From a bacterium (GTDB lineage: Bacteria > B130-G9), in contig JAGHCW010000008.1 in NCBI GenBank assembly GCA_021160245.1, positions 1-5,291 of the forward strand: a stretch of 5,291 nucleotides of DNA, in the 5' to 3' direction. Each line of letters opens with the position of its first letter. The first letter of the stretch is position 1. The position numbers and the translations under genes are program-made. The notes beneath the pieces were generated by a model. It searched no databases, was not told the origin of the DNA, and saw nothing but the letters and a program-made list of their open reading frames with translations. Positions 2,696-5,291 of the stretch are shown piece by piece.

Positions 2696-4171
2696 TTGGC
2701 TGAACTGGTTCTAGTAAACCCACCCCTCACCTCATGGGAGCAGTACTGCTACCTTGAGCAGACGAGCAACAACGTGGCGCCTCTTGGGCTTCTTAACCTC
2801 GGAGCTGTGACAAAGAAGGCGGGAATTGAGACCGCGCTTGTCGATGCAGAAGCGTTGGGACTCTCCTTCGATCAAGCGATCAAGAAGGCTCTCTCTTTTA
2901 ATCCAAGCGTGATTGCGGTTACGGCCGTCACGCTCTCGATAAGCAACGCTGCGGAGTTTGCATCGGGCATAAAGGAGGCGAACAGCTCCGTAAGAGTTGC
3001 AGTTGGTGGGCCTCACCTCTCGGCGGCCCCGGAGGAGACGATGCGTCGCTATCCCGAATTCGATGTGGGCGCAATTGGCGAGGGCGAGGTGACCATCATC
3101 GAGCTAATGGACGCGTTCCGAGGCGAGCGTTCTTTCGATAGCGTAGATGGTCTTATCCTGCGGAAAGATGGCGGCACGTATCGCACCTCAAAGCGGAAAT
3201 ACCTCGACGATCTCGACACGATTCCGCTTCAGGCCTGGGACCTATTGGAGCAATTCCCGGATATATACACGCCTCCGGCACACTCATTTGGAAGGCTGCC
3301 TGTGGCGGCGCTTTATACAACGCGCGGCTGTCCTGCGCAATGCACATATTGCTCGAAAAATGTCTTTGGCAATCGGATACGGTTCTTCAGCGCCGAATAT
3401 GTTCTCGAATCGCTCCGACATCTGATCTCGGAGTACGGCGTGCGTGAGGTCAAGTTCTATGACGACAACATGACCTTCTCCAAAGAGCGATTTTACGCGA
3501 TATGTGAGGGCATGCTCCGGGAGAAGATGGACATAACTTGGACATGTGTCTCGCGCGTTGATCTCGTTGACTTAGACTTGCTCAAGCTCGCAAAGAAGGC
3601 TGGCTGCTGGCAAATATCTTACGGCCTGGAGGCCGCCTCGGAGAGACTTCTCAAATTCATAAGAAAGGGCACGAATCTCGATAAGGTAAGGCAGGCGCTT
3701 GATATGACCCACAAGGCCAGAATCAGGGCTCGTGGCTACTATATGGCCGGGCTCCCAACGCAGACGCAAGAGGAACTCGAAGATACCGTTCGCTTTGCTC
3801 TGAAAGAACATGTGGATGATTTCCAGATACACCTTTTTGTCCCATTTCCCGGAACGCCTATCAGCGAGAACATAGAGCAATACGGCGAGATGATTGGTGA
3901 TTGGCACGACATGAACAAACACAAGGTTGTGTTCATTCCAAATGGATGGACTGCCGATGAGCTTGAGAAGGCTTACAACAACGCGCTGAGACGCTTTTAT
4001 TTGAGGCCGAAGGCGATCATCTCATACCTAGGCCAGATAAGAAGCTGGGAAGCGCTTACGAAATTCGTAAAGAGCGGCATGACTGTGGCTTGGCACTGGA
4101 TAGTCGGCGGCAAGTCTGACGCAAAGCACGATGCTCAGTCGCGCGCCAAGCTCCAAGCCAAGGATAGCTGA
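2696..4171 (+). CDS. B12-binding domain radical SAM protein (second of a tandem pair)
   Basis: This 491-residue protein has the full architecture of the cobalamin-binding radical SAM family. The N-terminal B12 domain (about 1-150) starts with AELVLVNPP and carries PLGLLNLGA, GGPH (104-107) and GEGE (128-131). The radical SAM core (about 200-400) has the ligands Cys212, Cys216 and Cys219 in TRGCPAQCTYC, then FYDDNMTF (254-261). GLEAA (310-314), MAGLPTQTQEE (350-360) and PFPGTP (383-388) follow. The C-terminal RRFYLRPKAI (432-441) is typical of this family's tail. Unlike its upstream neighbour, every motif is canonical, and the two proteins differ throughout, so they are not recent duplicates. 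The start is TTG, fixed by an upstream in-frame stop and a GGAG. The 51-bp spacing without a terminator suggests co-transcription with the first enzyme. Methylation or another radical modification of a shared substrate is plausible, but the window gives no clue to the substrate. Confidence 0.94.
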   Translation: MAELVLVNPPLTSWEQYCYLEQTSNNVAPLGLLNLGAVTKKAGIETALVDAEALGLSFDQAIKKALSFNPSVIAVTAVTLSISNAAEFASGIKEANSSVRVAVGGPHLSAAPEETMRRYPEFDVGAIGEGEVTIIELMDAFRGERSFDSVDGLILRKDGGTYRTSKRKYLDDLDTIPLQAWDLLEQFPDIYTPPAHSFGRLPVAALYTTRGCPAQCTYCSKNVFGNRIRFFSAEYVLESLRHLISEYGVREVKFYDDNMTFSKERFYAICEGMLREKMDITWTCVSRVDLVDLDLLKLAKKAGCWQISYGLEAASERLLKFIRKGTNLDKVRQALDMTHKARIRARGYYMAGLPTQTQEELEDTVRFALKEHVDDFQIHLFVPFPGTPISENIEQYGEMIGDWHDMNKHKVVFIPNGWTADELEKAYNNALRRFYLRPKAIISYLGQIRSWEALTKFVKSGMTVAWHWIVGGKSDAKHDAQSRAKLQAKDS

Positions 4172-4295: not shown

Positions 4296-4325
4296 TTGAC
4301 AATGTCCCATCCGGCTTGCTAGACT
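4296..4325 (+). promoter_or_regulatory. Candidate sigma-70-type promoter for the repeat-protein gene
   Basis: TTGACA (4296-4301, perfect -35) is followed after 18 bp by TAGACT (4320-4325), matching four of six -10 positions. It lies in the 214-bp gap between the second radical SAM gene and the GTG start at 4386, about 60 bp before that start. A short inverted repeat, TTGAA-4 nt-TTCAA (4272-4285), sits just upstream of the -35 and could be an operator half-site pair, although five-base arms are easily found by chance. No terminator hairpin with a T-run is visible in this gap. Confidence 0.38.
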
Positions 4326-4375
4326 TGCTTTCCTTACAAAGACGATTAGGGCGCCGCGGCCAGAAGAGAAGACTT

Positions 4376-4380
4376 GGAGG
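4376..4380 (+). promoter_or_regulatory. Ribosome binding site that decides the GTG start at 4386
   Basis: GGAGG, a near-perfect Shine-Dalgarno core, ends 5 nt before GTG 4386. An ATG at 4384 overlaps this start but reads into a stop after two codons. An in-frame TTG at 4374 overlaps the Shine-Dalgarno itself and has none of its own. Confidence 0.75.
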
Positions 4381-4385
4381 TAAAT

Positions 4386-5291
4386 GTGCTGAATCATCAT
4401 GCTAATTCAGGTGGTGTTGCTCTGCCGCTTCTGCCAGCGGTTGCTATTCTCATTTCTATGGCCCTCGTGGGCGCTGGGCTATATGCTACCGTTTCCGTAA
4501 GTAATTCGAACACCTGGCGCATCGCGAACGGCGATGGCCCATCGTCATGGTGCACGTGCGCCACAATATCAAACCTATCGCCTATTGAGCTCGATTTCGA
4601 GGCGCTGGGTGATGAGATAGCGCTCGTTGAGCTCTGGTATCGCCTCTCGCTTGATGATGGGGCGTCATTCGCCTACGAATGGTCGTTTTCCGGAGTCTCA
4701 ACTGATGCGACGGTTGGGATGCTGGAGTTCGAGCCGGTCATTGGTAAAGGCCTCTATGAATTCTACACAGTCGCTGAAAACGGCGCCGGCCAGCGTGAGG
4801 ATGCTCCCGGTAGCGCCGATTGCTACACACGTTTTATTCCGATGTTCCCAGGCTCGTTCTGCTGGTCGCCGGATTCCGCCAACCAGAAGCCGATTCCCGT
4901 CGATTTCGCGGCATACGCGCCGGATAATTCCTCGGTCGCAACCGTCGCTCTTTTCTATAGAAGGTTGGGCGAATTACAGACGCCTTTCATTGAGTATAGT
5001 GAATATGGCGTTGGAACCCGGGGGACGATTGAGTTCACATTGGGCGCGTCTATGGATGACGGTGTTTACGAGTTTTACACGGTCGCTCGAGACTCGGAGG
5101 ATAGAGAAGAGGACCCTCCCGCCAAGGCCGACGCCTCCACCGCTTACGACACAATTGCGCCCGAATCGGAGGGCAGCTGCGATGAGCGGTCGAGTTCCTC
5201 CGAAATAGTCGTCTCATTCGTGGCCTCTGATGAGATCTCCGGTGTCGAATCGACCAGACTATTCTTCCGCCTCAACGGCGCCGACTGGAGC
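4386..5291 (+). CDS. Exported or membrane-anchored repeat protein, 3' end outside the window
   Basis: The reading frame from GTG 4386 has no stop through the last base: 302 codons are seen and the C-terminus lies beyond the window. Residues 1-10 are short, with His but no Lys or Arg. Residues 11-38 form one hydrophobic segment (VALPLLPAVAILISMALVGA at 11-30), which fits a signal anchor, or a signal peptide cut after Ala34. A GG-VALP opening also recalls N-termini of PilX-like minor pilins, a weak resemblance. From about residue 56 the protein consists of roughly 104-residue repeats with WYRL/FYRRL/FFRL strands, a YEFYTVA block (124-130 and 228-234) and acidic, Pro-containing linkers. The layout suggests stacked beta-sandwich (Ig-like) domains outside the cytoplasm. 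I do not recognise a named family, and the role is unknown; a surface or adhesive protein is the most natural reading. A good ribosome binding site and a candidate promoter precede it, so it is probably a transcription unit separate from the radical SAM pair. Confidence 0.85.
   Translation, partial: MLNHHANSGGVALPLLPAVAILISMALVGAGLYATVSVSNSNTWRIANGDGPSSWCTCATISNLSPIELDFEALGDEIALVELWYRLSLDDGASFAYEWSFSGVSTDATVGMLEFEPVIGKGLYEFYTVAENGAGQREDAPGSADCYTRFIPMFPGSFCWSPDSANQKPIPVDFAAYAPDNSSVATVALFYRRLGELQTPFIEYSEYGVGTRGTIEFTLGASMDDGVYEFYTVARDSEDREEDPPAKADASTAYDTIAPESEGSCDERSSSSEIVVSFVASDEISGVESTRLFFRLNGADWS
4551..4850 (+). repeat. Protein repeat unit 1 (residues 56-155 of the exported protein)
   Basis: This first copy of a repeat of about 100 residues begins at Cys56 and carries PIELDF (66-71) and VELWYRL (81-87). 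Next are GLYEFYTVA (122-130), the acidic linker GAGQREDAP (133-141) and CYTRFIP (146-152). The linker resembles the D-x-AGN-x-E turn of bacterial Ig-like domains. Cys58 and Cys146 have no counterpart in unit 2. Confidence 0.75.
4851..5162 (+). repeat. Protein repeat unit 2 (residues 156-259)
   Basis: The second copy aligns with the first. Cys159 follows Cys56 by 103 residues, PIPVDF (169-174) matches PIELDF, VALFYRR (187-193) matches VELWYRL, and GVYEFYTVA (226-234) matches GLYEFYTVA 104 residues later. The linker SEDREEDPPAKADAS (237-251) is strongly acidic and runs into TAYDTIAP (252-259). At the DNA level the YEFYTVA blocks at 4755-4775 and 5067-5087 differ at third codon positions only, so the copies are old and held by protein selection. 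Confidence 0.8.
5163..5291 (+). repeat. Protein repeat unit 3, cut by the window edge (residues 260-302)
   Basis: The third copy starts after the same proline boundary and has Cys265, 106 residues after Cys159. EIVVSFVA (273-280) matches the PIPVDFAA strand and RLFFRLNG (291-298) matches the FYRRLG strand. An SGV segment (285-287) precedes that strand, as in related Ig-like repeats. The YEFYTVA block expected about 35 residues later lies outside the window. Confidence 0.65.

Follow-up and report, generated by a model that had tools for sequence, protein, structure and literature searches.

Tandem Ig/FN3-like units, expanded in a little-known bacterium, begin a gene that probably encodes a large exported stalk protein

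The giant Salmonella adhesin SiiE is a single type-I-secreted protein of 53 tandem BIg domains (2yn3/2yn5), Ig-like units about 100 residues long. Its type I Ca2+ sites draw Asp 117 from one domain and Asp 43 and Asp 97 from the domain that follows (PMC5466336). The HPI S-layer protein of Deinococcus (8cka) is likewise a surface protein with Ig-like domains, and fibronectin type III (FN3) tandems are found in titin, LAR, neogenin and, as FnIII-like modules, in CbhA of C. thermocellum. Two sequence families, NCBIfam NF047446 ("OmpL47-type beta-barrel") and Pfam PF19077 (Big_13), carry a G-x-Y-x-F...A-x-D-x-A-G-N-x-E signature. Here we compare these systems with a repeat protein gene in the window, the 5,291-base stretch of DNA that was analysed, which is the entire contig C41 of a 3.43 Mb genome assembled in 244 contigs. 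We put at roughly three in four the probability that this gene is the start of a large exported protein in which FN3/Ig-like units form a stalk or spacer, presumably stiffened by Ca2+.

The repeat gene opens from a GTG codon and runs in frame up to the contig end, so that about 300 residues are visible and the full architecture of the protein is hidden. The gene and its surroundings are as follows.

176-970: truA, 5′ of the repeat gene
1097-2644 and 2696-4171: a neighbouring pair of B12-binding radical SAM proteins, 5′ of the repeat gene
4296-4325, + strand: TTGACA-18-TAGACT, a sigma-70-like promoter by consensus match only, ahead of the repeat gene
4376-4380, + strand: ribosome-binding site GGAGG, 5 bases before the GTG start, read directly
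4386-5291, + strand: repeat protein gene, opening with GTG and truncated at the contig end before any stop codon
4410-4493, + strand: N-terminal hydrophobic segment GGVALPLLPAVAILISMALVGAGLYATV

The open frame itself spans 4374-5291. One promoter-like site was found where shuffles of the 351-base stretch led us to expect 0.0. The N-terminal hydrophobic segment has the character of a signal peptide or signal anchor. Used as a DNA query, the 3′ part of the window matched only itself and returned no contig continuing the repeat gene; by analogy with the paralogues described below, more units and a C-terminal domain probably follow past the contig end. Residue numbers refer to P0001, whose C60, C163 and C269 are residues 56, 159 and 265 when the GTG at 4386 is taken as the start.

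Behind the hydrophobic segment the protein consists of two complete units and the beginning of a third.

4539-4847, + strand: unit 1, FN3/Ig-like domain, P0001 residues 56-158, profile score 78.5 bits, model strands A-G
4755-4775, + strand: YEFYTVA of unit 1, exact sequence, strand F in the model
4848-5159, + strand: unit 2, FN3/Ig-like domain, residues 159-262, profile score 80.9 bits, model strands A-G
5067-5087, + strand: YEFYTVA of unit 2, exact sequence, strand F in the model
5160-5291, + strand: unit 3, first ~45 residues only, profile score 38.1 bits

On alignment, units 1 and 2 are clear homologues, with a score of 125 against a best of 59 among 2,000 shuffles. Pairwise matches of unit 3 to unit 1 (p 0.003) and to unit 2 (p 0.03) are weak, so unit 3 is secured by the profile alone; this profile took unit 2 as its seed and was then rebuilt with other genes of this genome, and because of the genome-wide scores listed above we take all three window units to be real. 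An earlier note on this DNA had described three tandem units, and three are present, each about 100 residues long and the third partial. The other motifs that it singled out are also there: YEFYTVA is identical in units 1 and 2, an aromatic-Arg pair (YR, YR, FR) ends the hydrophobic strand, which is strand C, and the acidic linker with its Pro corresponds to a stretch made up of strand G plus the linker. A pitch of about 104 residues fits the window units but not the family, in which the usual pitch is 98 residues (mean 101).

Searches with the profile revealed that the repeat is unusually expanded. Outside the window, the same genome holds ~235 further copies in ~23 mostly very long frames, a count in which some frames may be the two parts of a single gene broken during assembly. 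These copies amount to 23,619 residues, or 71 kb, which is 2.1% of the genome. Complete paralogues carry up to ~21 units per array. Mean identity between units in this genome is ~33%, and because neighbouring units are barely more alike than this mean, most arrays are probably old, judging from the sequences; a few arrays, whose units reach 86% identity, suggest recent duplication. In this genome many contigs, the window included, stop inside repeat arrays. At the 3′ end of contig C202 (L040) and the 5′ start of contig C209 (L034) lie units up to 78% identical, and L040 and L034 may on this account be one gene split by the assembler.

At least 447 units occur in stretches fetched from three relatives, which belong to the same family and are the sole other genomes of the phylum in our sample. 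Across the survey, profile matches were obtained in 86 of 290 sampled bacterial genomes, this genome and the three relatives included, with copy counts that are lower bounds and do not allow genomes to be ranked by copy number. A query with a single paralogue returned named matches that include Thermoplasmata, Methanomassiliicoccales, Armatimonadota, Anaerolineae and Zixibacteria, and the repeat thus extends to archaea. Two unrelated genomes contain frames of 22,286 aa (G032:C2) and 13,401 aa (G074:C42) with weak matches to the repeat profile. A literature search found no paper joining giant proteins, the candidate phylum and Ig-like repeats. The repeat is an ordinary Ig/FN3-like one; what is unusual is its expansion in a little-known bacterium.

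The fold was predicted with AlphaFold from an alignment of 22 sequences. The model (pLDDT 90.7) reveals seven strands per unit, A, B, C, C′, E, F and G, and in both units 1 and 2 the strand order is that of the FN3 domain. Each predicted unit has the seven strands, two sheets and ~90-100 residues of an FN3/Ig-like sandwich. Foldseek comparison with the Protein Data Bank (PDB) returned FN3/Ig tandems with E down to 6e-6, and VIA placed the model on PDB FN3/Ig tandems with Z 9-10 over 175-190 residues at an rmsd of 7-12 Å; we put this two-domain rmsd down to the angle between domains. The model leaves the orientation of one domain to the next unfixed (pTM 0.61). The stacked extracellular beta domains proposed in the earlier note thus find support in the predicted structure. 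Fibronectin type III tandems share the predicted topology and domain size with the window units and differ in linker and in sequence (7-15% identity), making this a likeness of fold only, and sharing a fold carries no information on function.

The repeat, whose family the earlier note was unable to name, can also be placed in sequence families. NF047446 matches 26 of 33 two-unit paralogue stretches (E≤0.01), L034:1003-1593 on the + strand among them, and Big_13 matches 24 of the 33 at the same E-value limit. Giant paralogues score 84-120 bits against NF047446 (threshold 40 bits) and, in sum, 70-84 bits against Big_13 (threshold 27 bits), and most paralogous units have the signature that marks these families. 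A profile search therefore places the paralogous units but not the window's own, which fall under the reporting level of both models: the window protein has no match to Big_13 at E≤1 and none to NF047446 at E≤0.1, and against Pfam it returns UPF0515 alone, under the cut-off at E 0.058. Since its scores miss both models, we do not file the window protein under NF047446 or Big_13, from which it is, by these scores, too divergent. Further differences from the two families are that the units here are predicted to form a sandwich, not a barrel, and that Cys in strand A is unusually frequent. Among solved structures, the repeat profile finds the S-layer protein 8cka (E 5e-5) as its best sequence match, followed by SiiE 2yn3/2yn5 (E 2e-4). 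The Deinococcus protein does not repeat a single unit in a long tandem array, as the proteins here do, and its S-layer status has no evident counterpart in the proteins of this genome.

Taken literally, the NCBIfam name would make the units segments of an OmpL47-type membrane beta-barrel, a reading that the 26 matches to NF047446 favour and that we nonetheless regard as hardly credible. The model shows soluble sandwiches of seven strands, one after another, and arrays of up to 21 units do not suit one barrel. The original assignment of OmpL47 as a barrel rested on strand-prediction programs and on surface and membrane-association assays (PMC2698987), and the available portion of that source mentions no structure. 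As a separate observation, a family named "OmpL47-type beta-barrel" here matches predicted FN3/Ig sandwiches, and the name may mislead annotation.

Comparison with SiiE suggests how successive sandwiches might be held together. An Asp triad, formed by profile position 97 of unit n-1 and positions 25 and 78 of unit n, is present at 161 of 195 interfaces in this genome (83%) and at 330 of 404 in the relatives. It has the same order as the type I sites of SiiE and nearly identical spacings (53 and 19, vs 54 and 20 in SiiE), a match that may be partly fortuitous because the SiiE residue numbers come from a multiple alignment. In the window the triad is degraded at the interface of units 1 and 2, where the usual-register Asp is absent both from the unit 1 linker and from position 25 of unit 2. 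At the interface of units 2 and 3, two of the three Asp are visible and the third lies past the contig end.

5148-5150, + strand: Asp259, linker, profile position 97, belonging to the Asp triad presumed to bind Ca2+ where units 2 and 3 meet (PMC5466336)
5229-5231, + strand: Asp286, profile position 25, another presumed Ca2+ ligand where units 2 and 3 meet

By analogy with SiiE, we infer putative Ca2+-stiffened interfaces. The resemblance does not extend to the whole protein: SiiE is one adhesin, whereas here ~23 frames carry the repeat, their N-terminal modules are of many kinds, and the paralogues start with hydrophobic export segments and share a C-terminal domain. Because they begin with N-terminal hydrophobic segments, their sequences suggest an export route that differs from type I secretion of the SiiE kind.

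The cysteines of the units lie at the following sites.

4551-4553, + strand: Cys60, unit 1, profile position 6, strand A, core-type with no regular partner
4557-4559, + strand: Cys62, unit 1, profile position 8, predicted to form a disulfide with Cys150
4821-4823, + strand: Cys150, unit 1, profile position 92, start of strand G
4860-4862, + strand: Cys163, unit 2, profile position 6
5178-5180, + strand: Cys269, unit 3, profile position 8, not the site of Cys60 and Cys163

Each window unit does have the early Cys that had been described as common to all three, but at position 6 in units 1 and 2 and at position 8 in unit 3. Such initial cysteines had been proposed to join neighbouring domains or to bind a ligand. 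In favour of this proposal, position 6 is Cys in 55% of units in this genome and 47% in the relatives, and Cys6 is weakly enriched in neighbouring units of this genome (p 0.015, uncorrected). The remaining units mostly have Ala, Val or Leu at position 6, which is C, A, V, L, I or M in 89-91% of units and Val or Ala in the archaeal relatives; Cys6 is moreover the sole profile-position Cys of its unit in 45 of 116 cases in this genome and 78 of 209 in the relatives. It avoids rather than joins the cysteines at positions 92/94, with 28 co-occurrences vs 32.0 expected in this genome and 59 vs 69.4 in the relatives by within-protein shuffles, and equivalent sites of adjacent sandwiches sit one domain length apart. 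An excess of Cys6 with Cys73, seen in the relatives only (27 vs 15.5 expected), would reflect a second optional bond within the unit. With position 6 core-type and lacking a regular Cys partner, we consider an inter-domain disulfide or ligand site very unlikely, and the simplest reading places the Cys at position 6 in the buried core.

Cys8 behaves differently from Cys6, co-occurring with Cys92/94 of the same unit 27 times vs 15.6 expected in this genome and 59 times vs 28.9 in the relatives. None of 5,000 within-protein shuffles reached this excess in either set, although such shuffles control relatedness among units only partly. The window is absent from both sets, and its unit 1 has the pair, C62 and C150. 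The simplest reading of these patterns is an optional within-unit disulfide between Cys8 and Cys92/94, predicted as C62-C150 in unit 1. Inter-unit Cys pairs, such as 43 with 27 and 11 with 80, appeared with small counts in few cells among many tests.

Complete paralogues share one domain order, in which the array lies between an N-terminal module (subtilase (S8), C25 peptidase, PQQ-propeller, Reg_prop, beta-helix or FG-GAP) and a common C-terminal domain. From this placement follows the stalk or spacer role that we favour. The protein would be exported by way of its N-terminal hydrophobic segment, with the chain of FN3/Ig-like sandwiches directly behind, and the array would most likely keep functional modules away from the cell surface. 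Ca2+ held by Asp 97 of unit n-1 and, in the unit after it, by Asp 25 and Asp 78 could stiffen the rod, an occasional Cys8-Cys92/94 disulfide would staple strand A to strand G within a unit, and the position-6 Cys would lie in the domain core. The repeats might instead themselves bind, as adhesin or glycan-binding units, since the Ig/FN3 fold often serves binding, the BIg domains of SiiE are believed to contact glycans (PMC5466336), and the loop regions here (profile positions 46-56) vary strongly among units. We judge this unlikely: at a mean identity of ~33%, the conserved positions are mainly those of the core, the turns and the presumed Ca2+ sites, a search for a conserved surface patch on the units found none, and the enzyme or propeller of most complete paralogues is a distinct module at the N-terminus.

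The stalk or spacer reading leaves the far end of these proteins to the common C-terminal domain of ~120 residues, which ends 17 of 17 paralogues with a genuine C-terminus. The L035 row of the alignment was not counted as a C-terminus, since it breaks off within a repeat, a few bases short of a contig end. Examples, all outside the window, are:

L045:8503-8886, + strand: C-terminal domain
L039:9612-9995, + strand: C-terminal domain
L048:7854-8237, + strand: C-terminal domain

Two proteins that lack the repeat also have this domain, at or close to their end. Searches of Pfam and NCBIfam gave nothing beyond chance level, and the predicted model is a beta-sandwich (pLDDT 88.4) nearest to RbmA, MG2, CARDB and Wzt carbohydrate-binding domains. 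We counted at least 15 copies in each of the four family genomes and at least 11 in each of four genomes outside the phylum (G050, G079, G089 and G221); in other phyla, too, it stands at or near the exact C-terminus and usually forms the last residues of the protein. As a rejected candidate, T9SS type A cargo was considered for this domain: the sorting-domain model TIGR04183 had no match in this genome, and its control matched in two genomes. A search for the SprA translocon had no match, and its control likewise matched nowhere. More tentatively, and with considerable doubt on our part, the arrays could be the stalks of a lineage-wide surface display system in which the C-terminal domain, common to many exported modules of unrelated kinds, is a sorting or anchoring signal for an undescribed export or anchoring machinery found in several other phyla as well.

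Together, these results give the "unnamed" repeat of the earlier note a name, as an Ig/FN3-like unit, and remove the idea of inter-domain disulfides. They reveal a single ordinary Ig/FN3-like unit filling ~2% of a genome in a candidate phylum known solely from assemblies, and the predicted model contradicts the NCBI annotation name "OmpL47-type beta-barrel". Should the Ca2+ triad prove real, stalks stiffened by calcium as in SiiE would be a general device well outside Proteobacteria. The unnamed C-terminal domain is a better lead than the repeat and provides a concrete handle on surface-protein sorting and anchoring in such bacteria.
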